Below are positions 29,917 through 45,772 of a stretch of DNA of 46,634 nucleotides, in pieces. The stretch is from positions 1-46,634 of IMG/VR virus record IMGVR_UViG_3300027852_000058. The stretch is one strand, 5' to 3'. Under the pieces are notes generated by a model. It searched no databases. It saw only the letters and a program-made list of their open reading frames with translations, and was not told the DNA's origin. Source of the stretch: a virus. The stretch's first letter is position 1. Every line of letters begins with the position of its first letter. The translations under genes and the position numbers were made by a program.

Positions 29917-29977
29917 TACAAAGTCAATTCCCGCATAATGCTCAGTTCTATTGCTCGACCAAAAAACTGGAAACTGG

Positions 29978-32242
29978 ATGAAACAACAAAAACAATACTT
30001 AGAACTTTTAGCGCCAAATGACACAGAATTTTTATTTGCCTGTTTTGATTACAGAAAGCAAAAACCACCAAAAACTTTTTATGGCACCTTAGTTGATCTT
30101 TTTGACGATTTACAAAGAGCTAACGATGAAGGCTATTGCGTCTATGTAACTGTAAATAAAACAGATGGCACCTTTAACGAAAAAGGAACACCACAACGCA
30201 AAAAGAAAAACGTAACCAATTGTAGAGCTATTTGGGTAGAAGATGATTCTATAGAAATCGAACCGCGTGATGATTTCCCGATAGAGCCTTCCTTTATAGT
30301 TCGTTCATCAAAAAACAAATATCACTACTACTGGCTAACGAATACCACTGAGTTCGCACAGTGGGAAGCCGTAATGATGGGTATGGTGGCGAACTGGGGT
30401 TGTGATCCTAATGCGCGGGACATAAGCCGCGTCCTACGCCTACCGGGTTTCTTGAATAATAAAAAAGCAGTCGATCAAGATTCCGTCATTTTTATCAAAG
30501 GAACCGGCAAAACTTTTGATTGGGATGAATTACACGAAATCTATCCAGAATTGGAAAAAGAGAAAAAAGAGGAAAAATCCTCTTTAAACTCAGATTTTAA
30601 TTTGCCAGACTCAATAGAGAAAATAATAAATTCAGAAAATTATCACAACTCTCTAGCTTCAATTTCCTTATCACTGGTCAATAACAACGTCCCTCGCGAA
30701 GTCGCGCTTTTTTGCTTAAAGTCTATTATGCAAGGCGTTCCCGTGGAAAAACGCCGTGAGGAATTTGATGACCGTGCCAGCGATGAACATTTATTAGAGT
30801 GCATCGATAGCGCAATAAATAAAGTAGAGGACGAAGATACCAGCGACGACGTAGATGTGGAAAGTTTGCTCGATCCCACAGATGATGAAGTTTTTGGGAG
30901 TCGCCTAACTTTCCCTCCCGGCGACATGGGCGATCTTTGTAAAGAAATTTTAGAAATGGCACCGCATCCCAATAAGATAATTTCAATCGCTGCGGGTATT
31001 GGTTTAATCGCTGGTATAACTGGCAGAAAATTTAATGTTTCCGGTTTCGGCTTAAACCTATATATAACGATTCTCGCTGATTCTGGTATAGGTAAGGCAA
31101 ATTTAAAAGACTCGATAAATAGAGCGTTAAGAGGTGGCCCATTAAATCAAGGCGCTAACTTTGCGGGATACTCTCGATTCACGGGGCCTAAAGCAATTTT
31201 TGATATGCTACAAGATGGCATGTCTCGAATATGTATTTTAGAGGAAGCTGGGCTTTTATCAGAATCAAAAAGTGGCGACCAACAAGGTATAAGTCGTGCA
31301 ACTCTTGATTTATTCACAAGTTCAGGTTTTCAAAAATTCTCAGGAAATGAGGGCTATTCTGATAAAAATAATTCTATTCCTAATTTAGAAAGTCCAGCGC
31401 TTTCGATGGTTTCAATATCGACACCACGCAGCTATTTAAACTCGATGAAAACGAAATCCTCTGAGCTATCAGGGGAAATTGCTCGCATGTGGCTTATGCG
31501 TAGTACAGAAAATAAAAATTATTTTAATGAAAACATGCGTACCGATTTTAGAAAAGAAACCAGAAAAAAAATAAATGACTTAGTAACGCTCTGCTTAACC
31601 GCTCAAAAATCAGATGTAGATTACAAGATAATTGATGTGGGAATTCCTAAAAAGTATTACAAAGACTCTAAAAGATGGGTTGATTTAGAAAATAAATATA
31701 AAATGGAAGGCGACAATTTACGCCGAACCCTATGCTCAAGGGCGTGGGCCAAGGTTTTAAAAATGGCATCAGTAATTTCTGTTTACAACGGAAAAAGTAA
31801 AATTGGCGACGATGAATATGAATGGGCAACGATGGCCGTGGAGCAAGAATTAGAATTTATAAAATTAACCTTCACCCATGAAGGCGTTGATAATTTAGAC
31901 AATATTGCAAAATCCGCAGTTTATCGACCTATCGTTCACATGCTGCAAAATAAATACGGTGATAAAAGTAAAAAAACACCATCTTTAGATTTAAGACAAC
32001 AGGGTATTTTTACACTGGGCAATTTAAAGCAGGTAGTCAGGAATAACGCTTTGCTGACAGAGTTAGACGATGACCCTTTATCGTTTAATCCAAAAACTGG
32101 TTTGGAAAAAATACTAAATTATATGATCCGAAGTGGTCAGTTAGTCGAAATGAAAAGAGAACAATTGCATATTTTAGGCTGCAAAAGCAAGATCGGTTAC
32201 AAAATAACAAGTGATTTTAGCTTAATGAACCTTCCAGAATAA
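29978..32242 (+). CDS. Primase-helicase, DUF3987-type
   Basis: ATG 29978 (with CTGGAAACTGG upstream) is preferred to TTG 29951. The 754-aa product has an N-terminal RepB/archaeo-eukaryotic-like primase domain: RAIWVEDD (83-90), SKNKYHYYWL (111-120) and RDISRVLRLPGFLN (148-161). An acidic linker follows to about 305, then a DUF3987-type ATPase domain with ILADSGIGKANL (365-376) and a Walker B-like ILEEAGLL (420-427). The Walker A is degenerate: the Ser/Thr after Lys373 is alanine. It should prime and unwind at the phage origin, and the non-coding candidate origin follows it directly. Confidence 0.8.
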   Translation: MKQQKQYLELLAPNDTEFLFACFDYRKQKPPKTFYGTLVDLFDDLQRANDEGYCVYVTVNKTDGTFNEKGTPQRKKKNVTNCRAIWVEDDSIEIEPRDDFPIEPSFIVRSSKNKYHYYWLTNTTEFAQWEAVMMGMVANWGCDPNARDISRVLRLPGFLNNKKAVDQDSVIFIKGTGKTFDWDELHEIYPELEKEKKEEKSSLNSDFNLPDSIEKIINSENYHNSLASISLSLVNNNVPREVALFCLKSIMQGVPVEKRREEFDDRASDEHLLECIDSAINKVEDEDTSDDVDVESLLDPTDDEVFGSRLTFPPGDMGDLCKEILEMAPHPNKIISIAAGIGLIAGITGRKFNVSGFGLNLYITILADSGIGKANLKDSINRALRGGPLNQGANFAGYSRFTGPKAIFDMLQDGMSRICILEEAGLLSESKSGDQQGISRATLDLFTSSGFQKFSGNEGYSDKNNSIPNLESPALSMVSISTPRSYLNSMKTKSSELSGEIARMWLMRSTENKNYFNENMRTDFRKETRKKINDLVTLCLTAQKSDVDYKIIDVGIPKKYYKDSKRWVDLENKYKMEGDNLRRTLCSRAWAKVLKMASVISVYNGKSKIGDDEYEWATMAVEQELEFIKLTFTHEGVDNLDNIAKSAVYRPIVHMLQNKYGDKSKKTPSLDLRQQGIFTLGNLKQVVRNNALLTELDDDPLSFNPKTGLEKILNYMIRSGQLVEMKREQLHILGCKSKIGYKITSDFSLMNLPE

Positions 32243-32342
32243 AAAATCCTTTTGCGAAAAAATATTTTTTAGCGATTATTTTCCCAAACTTTTAAAATAC
32301 CCCTCCCGTTAGAATTCAATTAGCCTCTTTTTGCGAGTTTAC

Positions 32343-32362
32343 TACTGTATATACATACAGTA
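32343..32362. promoter_or_regulatory. LexA (SOS) box 1
   Basis: TACTGTATATACATACAGTA differs at one position from the E. coli LexA consensus TACTGTATATATATACAGTA. It has eight-base perfect arms around a four-base centre. Confidence 0.75.
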
Positions 32363-32601
32363 CGACCTCGCTTTTTTGTGGGGTTGCAATTTAGAAAGTG
32401 CTGTTTTGCCCTATAAATACCCTGTTTTCGGGTGTTTTTGAGAAAATATTTATTTTCGCCATTTGTTTTTTTGCTACCCTAAATTTGTTTAAATAGCCCC
32501 TTTTTTGGCAAAAAAATAAATCAGGTCGATTTTACAAAAATATCTCGGCTTTTCCCTTGACAAATAGAAAAAGGCTTTTTTTCTGTACAAAAAGTATCCA
32601 A

Positions 32602-32621
32602 AACTGTATGGATATACAGTC
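32602..32621. promoter_or_regulatory. LexA-type box 2
   Basis: CTGT-ATGGATAT-ACAG with seven-base arms ACTGTAT / ATACAGT, the same arms as box 1, 259 bases downstream. Confidence 0.65.
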
Positions 32622-32677
32622 TTTTAAAATTTGACATTTAAAAACTTGTTATTTGCCAATGGGTTGCGAGTTTTCCC

Positions 32678-32733
32678 AAGGTAGTGTTTTTTTACTACCT
32701 TCGCTACCGTTTTACTACCTTGCGTGCTACCTT
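32678..32733. repeat. Iteron cluster A (GGTAGT / ACTACC)
   Basis: One AAGGTAGT copy (32678-32685) faces inverted copies ACTACCTT at 32694-32701 and 32714-32721, a variant GCTACCGT at 32703-32710 and GCTACCTT at 32726-32733. The mixed orientation forms an extended dyad. Confidence 0.65.
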
Positions 32734-32975
32734 GGTGAAAAATTAAATCGTTGAAAAATAAGGAAAAAAAAAATAAAAGGCTGACTTGTAGCGAAATACC
32801 AAATTTTTCGAGGGCGCTAGAGGGGAGGGGCTGGAAAATGGACATATTGCGATAGAACGAATAAAAAAATAAAAACAAGCTCCGAAAGTGACACCCTTTG
32901 GAAACGGAAGGTTTTACTACTAAGGAGGGTTTTGAAAATTTATATACTTATTTATCAACAACTTAACTATCACGT

Positions 32976-33006
32976 AAGGTAGTAAAAAAGGTAGTAAAAA
33001 GGTAGT
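32976..33006 (+). repeat. Iteron cluster B (three tandem AAGGTAGT)
   Basis: AAGGTAGT at 32976-32983, 32988-32995 and 32999-33006, separated by A-tracts with a period of 11-12 bases, about one helical turn. A single further copy lies at 33215-33222. The DnaA-like box is 16 bases upstream. This is the usual look of initiator-binding iterons. Confidence 0.7.
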
Positions 33007-33232
33007 GTTTGGAACGCGCTCGAATTAAATTTTTAAAAAATAAAATATTTTATTTTCTCGCAGGCACTAATAAAAGTGGTTCACTTCACCCCCACGGAAA
33101 ATGATCGATAAGGCTTAATTTAAAGGGGGTCTAAGCGTTTTTATTAAGTACCCCAGTGCATGGGTATAGGGTGTGCTTTTTAAAGTGGCCTGAGAGGTGC
33201 GCCATTAGCTTTTTAAGGTAGTGCTAGAAAAC

Positions 33233-33252
33233 CACTGTACAGAAAAACAGTG
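33233..33252. promoter_or_regulatory. LexA-type box 3
   Basis: CTGT-ACAGAAAA-ACAG with arms CACTGT / ACAGTG. It keeps the exact CTGT-N8-ACAG spacing but has a less symmetrical centre; it lies eleven bases after an AAGGTAGT repeat. Confidence 0.5.
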
Positions 33253-33431
33253 TGTTGAGAGTGACATTTATTAAAGTTTTCTAATATCTTATAAAAATTT
33301 TTTATTTTATTACTTTTTGAAAAACAGGCTTTTTAGGCCGAAAACGTGACCAATAATTAAAATCGAGTTCTATTTATGGGCCAAATGGCAAGGGGGTCTA
33401 CTGGGGTCACTGTGTTCCAAAATGGTGCGCT

Positions 33432-33504
33432 CGCAAACCCTATAGAAATAGGGGTTTCAGGGTTCGCGGTGGTGAGTTTGTCTGTTTTGGATTCTAGCGA
33501 ACTC
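33432..33504. repeat. Nested inverted repeats upstream of the 33590 operon
   Basis: A hairpin AAACCCTAT, loop AGAA, ATAGGGGTTT (33435-33457, one bulge) is enclosed by CGCAAACCC / GGGTTCGCG (one mismatch). The second arm can instead pair with GCGAACTC at 33497-33504 over eight bases. The two foldings compete. It may be a cruciform in origin DNA or part of an RNA; no promoter for such an RNA was found. Confidence 0.5.
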
Positions 33505-33530
33505 GCGCAGCCTGTTTATTTTTTTTGGGG

Positions 33531-33558
33531 TTTAACTGAAAAATAGGGCTAGTATAAT
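33531..33558 (+). promoter_or_regulatory. Probable promoter of the rightward accessory-packaging operon
   Basis: TTTAAC, 16 bases, TATAAT, 31 bases before the ATG at 33590. The -10 is perfect and the -35 is weak. Confidence 0.55.
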
Positions 33559-33589
33559 AGTCGCTCTATAAAAACTGGGAGATTTTAAA

Positions 33590-34050: not shown

Positions 34051-34307
34051 CAATATTTGAACAGAAGTTAAGAGAGATTATTAACGGGCATAGTCTTGAG
34101 AGTGAAAGTGATACACCGGATTTTATACTAGCTGAATATATGATAGATTGCTTAGATGCCTTTACAGATGCAACAAATAAGCGTGAAAAATGGTGCGGGC
34201 GAAAGACAGAACAGCAAGAGGCTAACGCCTTACAACCATTAGCTTTGGGGAGCGCAGCGTCCCGAAATAGAGCCTTGTTAGGCGAGGGAGGCGGGAATGC
34301 GACCTGA
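34047..34307 (+). CDS. Conserved small phage protein with unusual C-terminus
   Basis: An 86-aa protein. Residues 1-52 follow a pattern common in small phage proteins (FEQKLREIINGHSLESESDT followed by PDFILAEYM, then CLDAFTDATNKREKWCGR). The last 34 residues are unlike this: they are Ala/Leu/Gly-rich and are encoded by a GC-rich palindromic stretch (34220-34283) that does not resemble neighbouring DNA. The natural end of the gene may have been replaced by that insertion. Function unknown. Confidence 0.65.
   Translation: MTIFEQKLREIINGHSLESESDTPDFILAEYMIDCLDAFTDATNKREKWCGRKTEQQEANALQPLALGSAASRNRALLGEGGGNAT
34220..34283 (-). repeat. attC-like imperfect palindrome
   Basis: Read on the minus strand it starts GCCTAAC (fits RYYYAAC) and ends GTTAGCC (one change from GTTRRRY). 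The 64-base element is GC-rich, with a central partial stem (TTTCGGGA / TCCCCAAA, one C-C mismatch). Size, ends and fold recall an integron attC site, but no integron integrase is present. Confidence 0.4.
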
Positions 34308-34524
34308 TGAACAATGCAAAAAAGGCGGGTTAGAGGGCATTCGAGAAATGTCGAAAATAACTGGAGAAACCTTGGAAATGCTCAGAAAATGGCATGAGAA
34401 AAAACCGCGAGTTTTTCAACTTTTGTTAATTGGTGCAAGAGCTGAAAAAATAAGAATTTCATTGAGTTCTGATAAAGCCTTAACAACTGGAGATTTATAT
34501 CATGTTGATGATCGTAGATTATAA
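34297..34524 (+). CDS. Conserved small phage protein with HTH-like pattern
   Basis: A 75-aa protein with the pattern KKGGLEGIREMSKITGETLEM followed by LRKWHEKKPRVFQLLLIGA. Phage proteins of this type (KGG.....LS..TG.S..TL.NW...KP.LF) have a predicted helix-turn-helix and occur in small accessory operons. It may bind DNA, but this is inference. The ribosome site GGGAGG comes from the GC-rich palindromic region just upstream. Confidence 0.65.
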   Translation: MRPDEQCKKGGLEGIREMSKITGETLEMLRKWHEKKPRVFQLLLIGARAEKIRISLSSDKALTTGDLYHVDDRRL

Positions 34525-40463: not shown

Positions 40464-41270
40464 ATGTTTATAGGCAATAAATTTTTCAAATATCGTGTTT
40501 TTTCTATGGCTGACGGTGGCGAGGGCGGCGAAGGCGGCAGCGGCGGCGGCGAGCAAACATTCACAAAAGAGCAAATGGCGGCTGAAATTGCGAGGGCTGT
40601 TGACGAACAAACCACGGGCTTAAAAACAAAAAATCAAGAAATTTTGGATAAATTAAAAACTTCTCAGGATTCCTTAAGCGCTTTTGAGGGTATTGATGCA
40701 ACAGAAATGAAAACAATGTTGAAAACTTTTTCAGATAATGAAGAGTTAAAATTGATTTCTGAAGGCAAGCATGAAGAAGTGATAAATAAACGTCTTGAAA
40801 AAGAACGCGCTGTCACAAATTCTCAAATTGAAAATTTAACAAGCGAGCGTGATACTTTGTTAAGTGGTTCAAACAAAAAAGATGATTTAATTCGCGATTT
40901 AATCATCGACACTAGCATTACAGCGGAATTTGTAAAACAAGGCGGAATTCCAGAGGCCATTGATGATGTTGTTTTGCGAGCAAAGCAGGTTTTTGTTTTA
41001 GAAGCCGACGGCGATTCTTTTAATGCGGTTCCTCGAAAAAATGGCGAAATAATTTCTGGAAAAGATGGGCAATTAACAAACGCAGAGTGGATTGAAAGTT
41101 TAAAAACTTCTGCGCCTCATTTGTTCCCGAACTCCTCCGGCTCTGGACAGCCACCCAGTGGCGGCGATAAAAACAGCATAGATTCAAAGCTGAAAGCAGC
41201 GGCGGCGGCTGGCGATCAGGCCGAGTATCGACGGCTAAAAGATTTGCAAAAAGAGCAAAAAAAGGCTTGA
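40464..41270 (+). CDS. Capsid scaffold protein
   Basis: A 268-aa protein; ATG 40464 has CGAGGG upstream, while an alternative start at 40506 (MADGGEGG) has none. After a Gly-rich segment (GGEGGSGGGEQ) there is a long charged coiled coil (LKTKNQEILDKLKTSQDSLS; RAVTNSQIENLTSERDTLL), a middle domain (LIIDTSITAEFVKQGGIPEA), and a disordered C-terminal part rich in Ser/Gly/Pro ending in a Lys-rich helix. This is the usual build of scaffold proteins upstream of the coat gene, which direct capsid assembly and then leave. Confidence 0.82.
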   Translation: MFIGNKFFKYRVFSMADGGEGGEGGSGGGEQTFTKEQMAAEIARAVDEQTTGLKTKNQEILDKLKTSQDSLSAFEGIDATEMKTMLKTFSDNEELKLISEGKHEEVINKRLEKERAVTNSQIENLTSERDTLLSGSNKKDDLIRDLIIDTSITAEFVKQGGIPEAIDDVVLRAKQVFVLEADGDSFNAVPRKNGEIISGKDGQLTNAEWIESLKTSAPHLFPNSSGSGQPPSGGDKNSIDSKLKAAAAAGDQAEYRRLKDLQKEQKKA

Positions 41271-41470
41271 TTTATAAGGCGATTATCAATATCTTCCCAG
41301 TATCCCCTACGGGTTTACCGCTTCTATTAGCAAAGGCTAGGCTGGCGCTAATAGGCTAGAAGATGTAAGCAACCATAGGGCGAGGGTCAGGCTCTCGCTT
41401 AGTTTGGTGCTTATATAGCAGTATTTCCCCATCCCACAAGGTTAGGCCAAGTGGCAGGACGCAAAAAGTT
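41271..41470 (+). ncRNA. Candidate structured RNA between scaffold and coat genes
   Basis: About 200 bases without a gene, clearly richer in GC than their surroundings. Stems on the plus strand: CTATTAGC (41324-41331) with GCTAATAG (41347-41354); AAGC-A-ACCA (41367-41375) with TGGTGCTT (41405-41412), enclosing GCGAGGG (41380-41386) with CTCTCGC (41392-41398); CCAC-aa-GG (41434-41441) with CC-aa-GTGG (41447-41454). CAGTATCCCC (41298-41307) recurs as CAGTATTTCCCC (41419-41430). No tRNA, tmRNA or known riboswitch is recognised. The rest, up to the coat start at 41571, is a T-rich spacer ending in a GGAG site. Confidence 0.55.
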
Positions 41471-41570
41471 TTTTGGTTTTTGTTCTGTTAATTGGCCTTT
41501 TTCTTTTTTCAGCAATCTCCAAAAAAATAAACTTATTTTTTTATATTTAATTTTTTTGGAGAATTAAAAA

Positions 41571-42728
41571 ATGCCAAATGCTTTTGAAGAAATGGACTCA
41601 ATCGGGTCTGAAGCTCTGGTTCATCTTGAGGATGGGCTGAATATTACGAAACTTGCCGCTAAAGATATTAGCTCTGATTTTAACAAAACCGCAGACGGTT
41701 ATGCTAAAGGCTCTACCGTTCGGATTGTTACTCGCCCCGAGTACGAAGCCAAAGAATTTTCAACTGCGATTGAGCCTCAAGAGAGTCGTGAATCAAAACG
41801 ATCACTGACTGTCGAAAAACTTTTCGATATTTCTGTAGAAATTACAGCAAAAGAAAAGGCCATGAACCTTTCCAGTCTTTCTGAGCAGGTTATTAAGCCA
41901 GCGGCTTATAAACTTGCTGAGGCTTGCGATATTTACGTTGGAAGCAAAATTGTCGAAGGTGCCGGTAATTATTATTCCAATGATATTTTTGCCAGTGCTG
42001 CGGATATGGCGCTTGCCCGTGATGCCGCAAATATTCAACAGCTAGAGTTAGATGGTCGATTCTGCCTTGTCAATACCGCTCTGGAAGCAAAATTACTGGG
42101 CCTGACTTATTTTAACACTTTCACAAATCGCGGCGAAGACGGTGCGCGTGTTTTTCGCGAGGGTAACATGGGTCGCGGTTTGGGTATGGATTTTTATTCA
42201 AGCGTTAATTTCCCTGTTGACGGTCACACTCCCGGCGATGGTTCAACCACTGTTGATAGCGGTACGCCGGTTTCTGGAATTTATCCAAACAACAAAATTG
42301 GTGATACTTCGCTAGTTGTTGATTCTACTTCTGGAACTTTTAACGCTGGTGATCGAATAAAAGTTGCTGGACTAAAACGTCCTTTGATTGTTGCTTCTCA
42401 AGTTGTCGCAACGGGAACGGCAATTCCTTTGGTCGATCCAATTACTGAAGTTATCACGGATGGCGCGGCTGTTACGGTTGTCGGTTCTGGTCTGACAGTT
42501 TCAACTTTGGACGGTGCAATTTTCGATTCCCAATCTTTGGCAATCGCAATGCCCGTTTTGGATAAACCTTCTGATAAGCCTGCCAGTGTAGTGTCTAACA
42601 ACGGTTACTCGATTCGAGTTGCGATGGGTTATGACATGAACACGAAAAAAGAAACCCTCTCACTGGATCTTTTAATCGGTGCTAAAGCATACGATCCACG
42701 GCGAATTACTCTGCTTAGAAATTACTAA
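41571..42728 (+). CDS. Major capsid protein, P22 coat-like
   Basis: A 385-aa protein with TTTTGGAGAATTA before ATG. It matches the P22 gp5-type coat family: an N-terminal arm, VRIVTRPEYEAKEF, the helix LSSLSEQVIKPAAYKLAEACD, RFCLVNTALEAKLLG, GNMGRGLGMDFYSSVNFP, then an inserted Ig-like or jelly-roll segment (GDTSLVVDSTSGTFNAGDRI), and the closing GYDMNTKKETLSLDLLIGA. It forms the HK97-fold shell. A terminator-like hairpin directly follows, so this gene could be expressed above the level of the later ones. Confidence 0.93.
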   Translation: MPNAFEEMDSIGSEALVHLEDGLNITKLAAKDISSDFNKTADGYAKGSTVRIVTRPEYEAKEFSTAIEPQESRESKRSLTVEKLFDISVEITAKEKAMNLSSLSEQVIKPAAYKLAEACDIYVGSKIVEGAGNYYSNDIFASAADMALARDAANIQQLELDGRFCLVNTALEAKLLGLTYFNTFTNRGEDGARVFREGNMGRGLGMDFYSSVNFPVDGHTPGDGSTTVDSGTPVSGIYPNNKIGDTSLVVDSTSGTFNAGDRIKVAGLKRPLIVASQVVATGTAIPLVDPITEVITDGAAVTVVGSGLTVSTLDGAIFDSQSLAIAMPVLDKPSDKPASVVSNNGYSIRVAMGYDMNTKKETLSLDLLIGAKAYDPRRITLLRNY

Positions 42729-42741
42729 GTTTCGCCATCTT

Positions 42742-42776
42742 GGGCGTTAGTTTTATTTTTGCTTTCGCCCTTTTTT
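42742..42776 (+). terminator. Terminator after the coat gene
   Basis: GGGCG (42742-42746) pairs with CGCCC (42766-42770) around a 19-base loop, followed by six T. The loop is long, so it is probably a partial terminator. Confidence 0.5.
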
Positions 42777-44910: not shown

Positions 44911-45366
44911 ATGCCCGCTGTTACTTTTAATTTATATGATAAATATCGACAAAACTCTTTTAATGGTGGGGCAATTGATATTGATGCCGCAACATTAAAA
45001 ATGGCTATCGTCACTGGCTCATACACTCTCGATCAAAATTTACATGATTTCTTTGATGATGTTGTGGCAAACGAGGTTTCTGGAAATAACTACACGGCGG
45101 GTGGAAACGCTTGTACGGCAGGCACCGTGACAATTAACGGCTCTGGTCTTGTTACCGTGGATGCTAACGATCCAGCTGTCTGGTCACAACATGCGACCGG
45201 GTTTTCAAATGGTCGCCGCGCAATTCTTTACGATTCCGGCCCCGCTTCCGATGCAACCCGGCCCTTGATCGGTTTTTCAAATGATTTTGGAGCTGATAAA
45301 GGCAATGTCGATGGTGATTTTTCAACGACATTTAGTGCGTCAGGCATCTTCACATCTGCGCGATAA
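44911..45366 (+). CDS. Phage virion-associated protein (head or decoration)
   Basis: A 151-aa protein of a type common in phage structural modules: LKMAIVTGSYTLDQNLHDFF, DDVVANEVSGNNYTAGGNAC, WSQHATGFSNGRRAILYD and FSTTFSASGIF. These proteins follow coat genes in many phages and are recovered in virions, but their exact place (decoration or neck) is not settled. AGGATTTTA upstream is a fair ribosome site. Confidence 0.7.
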   Translation: MPAVTFNLYDKYRQNSFNGGAIDIDAATLKMAIVTGSYTLDQNLHDFFDDVVANEVSGNNYTAGGNACTAGTVTINGSGLVTVDANDPAVWSQHATGFSNGRRAILYDSGPASDATRPLIGFSNDFGADKGNVDGDFSTTFSASGIFTSAR

Positions 45367-45433
45367 TTAAATCAAAATTAAATAAAAGCGGTAATATTTC
45401 TTATCGCTTTTATTTAATTATTTGAGTTTTTAA

Positions 45434-45772
45434 ATGCCTATTTCTAGCATAACGTCAACGCCTACCAGCCTCACCCTTGTGGGTGTGGGGCCGGGTGGTG
45501 TGCTGACGGTTAATTATGCGGATATTCCCGGTAATTCTTGGAATAACAATAGGCTGAATAAATTAGTCGCAAAAGTTCAAGATTTAATCGATGTTAGAAT
45601 TCCATTAGATGACCCATCCTTAATCGATGATCCAGATGCCCTGGTTGACCCCGCTCGCCCTGATTTTTTTCACGAAGGTGGAGACTTAGTTTCTCGATCT
45701 ATTATTATTTCTGATGTATCTTTTGATAATGTAAATGATATTTTAAATTTTAAATTAAGTAGGGCGGGATAA
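45434..45772 (+). CDS. Unknown structural-module protein
   Basis: A 112-aa protein, Ser/Thr-rich at the N-terminus, with NRLNKLVAKVQDLIDVRIPL and a Pro/Asp-rich middle, then VSRSIIISDVSFDNVNDILNF. It is linked to the next gene by TAATG. No known family; a neck or tail-connector role would suit the location. Confidence 0.6.
   Translation: MPISSITSTPTSLTLVGVGPGGVLTVNYADIPGNSWNNNRLNKLVAKVQDLIDVRIPLDDPSLIDDPDALVDPARPDFFHEGGDLVSRSIIISDVSFDNVNDILNFKLSRAG

Follow-up and report, generated by a model that had tools for sequence, protein, structure and literature searches.

In the operons of bacteria and phages, leader regions hold intrinsic (Rho-independent) terminators and attenuators. The ratio of scaffold to coat is critical for head assembly, and little is known about how it is set at the RNA level in tailed phages. 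Among described phage RNAs, the HK022 put RNA is a factor-independent antiterminator of about 70 nt located in early operons (PMC9378689). The window analysed here, i.e., the whole stretch of DNA under study, comprises the 46,634 bases of a virus record. Its scaffold-coat boundary offers a concrete, testable case, in which a terminator-like hairpin is combined with a masked ribosome-binding site. The relatives of its portal protein and the closest relatives of its polymerase III alpha subunit come mostly from phages of Proteobacteria; the host of the window phage is, judging by sequence, likely proteobacterial. The features of the locus were as follows:

40464-41270, + strand: gene for a head scaffolding protein, the upstream neighbour (phrog_206, E 3e-28, residues 28-258 of 268 covered)
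41271-41570, + strand: non-coding spacer of 300 nt from scaffold to coat, defined by ORF and frame checks and by gap lengths in relatives
41289-41366, + strand: 5' domain, a stem ATATCTTC/GAAGATGT around a CCC/GGG mini-hairpin plus the CTATTAGC/GCTAATAG hairpin (41324-41354); fold dG -23, z -1.17
41365-41414, + strand: hairpin H2, AAGC-ACCA/TGGTGCTT around GCGAGGG/CTCTCGC; dG -24.3, z -5.3
41444-41509, + strand: intrinsic-terminator-like hairpin, AGGCCAA...TTGGCCT with a T-rich tail (TTTTTCTTTTTT run); dG -22.8 to -23.9, z -4.2
41516-41562, + strand: AU-rich hairpin over the coat Shine-Dalgarno (SD) sequence, arms TCTCCAAAAAAAT/ATTTTTTTGGAGA, 94% complementary; z -4.0
41571-42728, + strand: major coat protein gene of the P22-like family (PF11651, E 1.5e-15; phrog_283, E 1.3e-43)
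42742-42776, + strand: second terminator-like hairpin, 3' of the coat gene, GGGCG..CGCCC TTTTTT; fold dG -12.4 and direct sequence reading

We tentatively interpret the spacer as a cis-acting boundary, belonging to one phage lineage, that separates the scaffold gene from the coat gene and combines the scaffold 3' end, an attenuator and the coat leader. Downstream of the scaffold stop codon, the two stem-loop domains are followed by the terminator-like hairpin with its T tract, the SD-masking hairpin and the coat ATG. All structural elements lie in the coat-gene orientation, which was counted in favour of this interpretation. A slippery heptamer, A AAA AAG (41258-41264), is located directly before the scaffold stop codon, and a -1 shift there would add 31 residues, ending at 41359. 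Programmed frameshifting at this position was considered and rejected, as the 31-aa frame, while open, is unlike any family and the nearest stem lies approximately 25 nt away. The heptamer probably arose by chance in the Lys-rich scaffold tail.

The sequence-only reading had described the segment upstream of the coat gene as strongly structured. This description was accurate for hairpin H2 and not for the segment as a whole, which was no stabler than shuffled sequence (z about -1.5). The z-scores were -1.58 for 271 nt, -1.46 for positions 41271-41420 and about 0 for 150-nt windows over 41201-41450. That the 5' 150 nt folded no better than shuffled sequence was counted against a boundary function, and two strand contrasts were counted for it: over the same 271 nt, z was -1.58 on the + strand versus -0.05 on the - strand, and the dG of H2 was -24.3 versus about -14.7. 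Within the 5' domain, the proposed eight-base stem was recovered as a perfect 8-bp pairing of CTATTAGC with GCTAATAG (41324-41331/41347-41354), insignificant by itself against shuffles (z -0.23). The folding of this domain as a unit (z -1.17) is modest and may be of chance origin. The nested stem proposed next to it, AAGC-ACCA/TGGTGCTT enclosing GCGAGGG/CTCTCGC, was found at 41365-41414 (H2), and none of 200 shuffles folded as well. H2 is the most stable 54-nt stretch outside the annotated genes of the window; among 31,054 such windows on both strands, the only stabler site, at 45454, lies inside an ORF. None of the H2, terminator and SD hairpins was matched by any shuffle, with z-scores that are somewhat flattering, because these sub-windows were picked after inspection.

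The remaining structural and compositional claims fared less well. The predicted CCAC-GG/CC-GTGG stem did not appear in the minimum-energy fold, and part of its bases pair into the hairpin at 41444-41498 instead. The segment had also been called GC-rich between AT-rich flanks. Its GC content of 48% indeed exceeds the mean of 37.5% and ranks among the highest 4% of 190-nt windows. The genes on either side, however, have 41% and 44% GC, and only the right flank at 41461-41570 is AT-rich (21% GC). The direct repeat CAGTAT(TT)CCCC, said to bracket the main domain, exists (41298-41307 and 41419-41430), but short repeats of such kind are expected by chance.

Two further hairpins, both absent from the sequence-only reading, lie immediately upstream of the coat gene. 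The first (41444-41498) has the anatomy of an intrinsic terminator, i.e., a GC-containing stem, closed by AGGCCAA/TTGGCCT, that passes directly into a T-rich tail reaching 41509. In a custom scan of the window, by the script's own criteria, it was the strongest intergenic terminator-like hairpin, and a simple terminator scan with a loop of at most 8 missed it because its loop is larger. A long, near-perfect AT-rich hairpin (AATTAAATAAAAGCGGTAATATTTCTTATCGCTTTTATTTAATT), also terminator-like, was observed at 45366-45434 between two late genes. The second hairpin (41516-41562) is AU-rich and masks the coat SD sequence GGAG (41558-41561). The terminator loop TTTTTTGG could kiss the anti-SD arm CCAAAAAA, a pairing expected in such A/T tracts. 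By folding energy, the coat start ranks 8th of 53 gene starts and is thus not exceptional here; SD masking is common at the gene starts of this AT-rich phage, which was counted against a dedicated control function. The most stably folding start region of the 53 (dG -23) belongs to a small gene at 34297-34524.

These data bear on the possibility that the spacer is ordinary intergenic DNA, with a terminator and chance hairpins in a GC-richer patch. We regard this as improbable. The z-scores near 0 for 150-nt windows over 41201-41450 and the similar hairpins at many gene starts of the window speak for it, but H2 is exceptional within the window, and the H2, terminator and SD hairpins went unmatched by shuffles, even though the sub-windows were picked after looking.

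The terminator-like hairpin following the coat gene was likewise counted in favour of a control boundary, and with it the coat gene appears to form a discrete transcription unit. The gene is bracketed by terminator-like hairpins (41444-41509 and 42742-42776), yet it has no preceding consensus promoter: no consensus sigma-70 promoter was found on the + strand between the terminator and the coat gene. Full termination would therefore silence the coat gene, and the boundary reading has to suppose read-through, antitermination or a promoter of unusual type, which was counted against it. Phages may use promoter types other than sigma-70.

The spacer had been called gene-free, and its frames of 27-54 aa were indeed unlike any Pfam, NCBIfam or PHROGs family, which was counted in favour of a non-coding boundary. 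A search for a decayed protein gene with six-frame pieces of the spacer against the same three collections gave best E-values of 0.13 and 0.027, which are meaningless. The assertion that no known tRNA or tmRNA is present was borne out by the ARAGORN model, which returned zero genes in the spacer. The suggested comparison with Rfam was run as well; no family of Rfam 15 reached its gathering threshold, and a cut-off relaxed to E 5 brought up only two matches, both at chance level. Another gene-free stretch of the window, 1.3 kb long (32243-33589), adjoins the RepB-type primase gene (29951-32242) and is repeat-rich, with a 67-nt inverted repeat (32704-32770/32939-33005) and many GGTAGT/ACTACC repeats; it is possibly a replication origin.

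The length of the spacer was compared among coat relatives from IMG/VR (approximately 22-30% identity, 80 kept) and 31 from bacterial (GTDB) genomes. The gap was measured wherever an upstream ORF and a full-length coat match were present, giving approximately 100 loci; a few others lacked an upstream ORF that could be measured, and two larger values (L157, L163) were set aside as partial C-terminal matches. The scaffold-coat gap did not exceed 99 nt in the IMG/VR loci or 108 nt in the genomes, compared to 300 nt here. With no gap above 108 nt in approximately 100 measurable relatives, all of which lack the segment, the 300-nt spacer is lineage-specific. This specificity looks insert-like, which would suit a remnant of an inserted element or a decayed small gene, now functionless, whose stems are leftovers or chance. 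The whole-segment folding, within the shuffle range, would agree with such an origin. However, no spacer frame resembles a protein family, the H2 and terminator hairpins are intact, and a transposon remnant was discarded, as the spacer lacks terminal repeats and shows neither the flanking repeats nor the inverted ends that transposons typically have; we consider the remnant explanation distinctly unlikely.

Relatives of the segment itself were sought at several levels. When the element was compared by DNA BLAST with phages, plasmids and E. coli genomes, nothing beyond a 29-nt chance match was returned. The IMG/VR scan with a 21-mer of H2 gave no match, and scans with two other words gave nine loci, alike only around the word itself. 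A single-sequence covariance model, an insensitive tool, was run on 67 sources and on 18 related records in their entirety and had no match; records very close to the window may be left out of these collections. The terminase search gave no relative, and the polymerase relatives carry neither the window's coat nor the element. The failure to find a relative of the segment at any search level was counted against a boundary function. It also bears on the main rival explanation, that of an independent small RNA gene ("RNA moron") of approximately 200-240 nt, inserted between scaffold and coat, ending at its own 3' terminator (41444-41509) and acting in trans on the host or the phage. A lineage-specific insert of GC-richer DNA, the stable H2 hairpin and a terminator-like hairpin at the 3' end would all fit such a gene. 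Nevertheless, the + strand near 41271 has no sigma-70-type promoter match, and no homologue was found in phages, plasmids, E. coli genomes, the IMG/VR pattern scans or Rfam, or by the single-sequence covariance model; we consider a separate RNA gene rather unlikely.

The sequence-only reading had proposed a coat-gene leader, an assembly or packaging RNA or an independent non-coding RNA. Of these, a leader or control region of the coat gene agrees best with the anatomy, as the terminator-like and SD-masking hairpins lie right before the coat gene, and a packaging or assembly RNA was unsupported. We consider local control of coat-gene expression the most likely role of the segment, in preference to its being a recognisable new family of RNA. 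Although real, the element is of an ordinary kind, namely a control spacer that is lineage-specific and contains a strong hairpin and a signal resembling a terminator. From this arrangement we infer transcription of the spacer, termination and read-through, a role for H2 and any effect on the coat level. Transcription from the scaffold gene would run into an untranslated structured RNA (the 5' domain and H2) and then into the terminator-like hairpin, where a fraction of the transcripts would end, yielding scaffold mRNAs with a structured 3' end. The remaining transcripts would read through, or new ones would start, into the coat gene, whose ribosome-binding site would be held in the further AU-rich hairpin. 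The spacer may in this way set coat output relative to scaffold, with coat translation uncoupled from scaffold translation. A more elaborate scheme, in which the 5' domain and H2 form an undescribed phage structured RNA, either acting on RNA polymerase during elongation or sensing a ligand, that controls read-through of the terminator and so switches major-coat synthesis, appears very unlikely.

Many coat relatives with gaps of 55-99 nt carry a small hairpin motif of a different kind. Its outer stem leads through a UAA/CC internal loop to an inner stem of 4 bp, with near-invariant first two pairs, and to a GNRA-type loop (core CTAACGYYGWGARRCGCCG); the SD sequence is located in or beside the 3' arm. 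A covariance model, R1, found the motif in the scaffold-coat gap of approximately ten coat relatives, often twice, and its matches were restricted to this gap in the larger records searched whole. Scanning IMG/VR with the core sequence yielded 69 stretches; approximately 60 of 64 distinct occurrences were intergenic, and for most of these a start codon lay no more than about 15 nt away. Examples on viral contigs, outside the window, are L023:3927-3993, L030:3933-3994, L026:3835-3891 and L233:5089-5117. Besides P22-like coats, the motif precedes genes that we take, from our own reading of the sequences, to encode a second coat-like family (MTAPTNTFLTT...), portal-like, terminase-like and other proteins. 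The coat gene of one carrier resembles that of Rhodoferax phage P26218. In 119 aligned matches, with the alignment fitted to the structure, 149 cells changed on both sides compared to 48.8 in shuffles. As an independent check, 60 distinct core hits were picked without reference to the outer stem, its innermost C-G pair excepted. The next outer pair was formed in 58 of them, compared to a shuffle maximum of 48, and the two variable pairs of the inner stem each changed together in 59. The motif had no match in Rfam 15, and its core sequence letters were not found in the literature searched, in which a "Burkholderiales-1" candidate without an Rfam number is listed (Weinberg et al. 2010, PMC2864571). 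We infer that the motif probably serves head genes as a translational operator or enhancer. This widespread covarying ribosome-binding-site hairpin of other phages' head operons is perhaps of more general value than the window element.

The motif is absent from the window, where the best R1 match (E 1.8, - strand) is at chance level. Compared to intrinsic terminators and attenuators, the locus is similar in that a stable hairpin with a T-rich tract behind it (41444-41509) lies upstream of a gene that is possibly attenuated. It differs in that the stem is long and imperfect and the loop is large, and we recognised neither an antiterminator pairing nor a leader peptide or ligand domain. With the HK022 put RNA (PMC9378689) it shares two adjacent stem-loop domains in the nascent RNA of a phage, upstream of a terminator, a general resemblance that serves as a lead only, whereas the domains described here span about 125 nt and lie in a late head operon. 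The SD-overlapping head-gene hairpin of other phages is comparable in that structured RNA occupies the scaffold-coat gap and hides or abuts the coat SD sequence. It was also counted in favour of the boundary reading that, in other phages with P22-like coats, a covarying hairpin within this gap overlaps or adjoins the coat SD sequence, so that RNA-level control at this site has parallels, albeit with a different hairpin.
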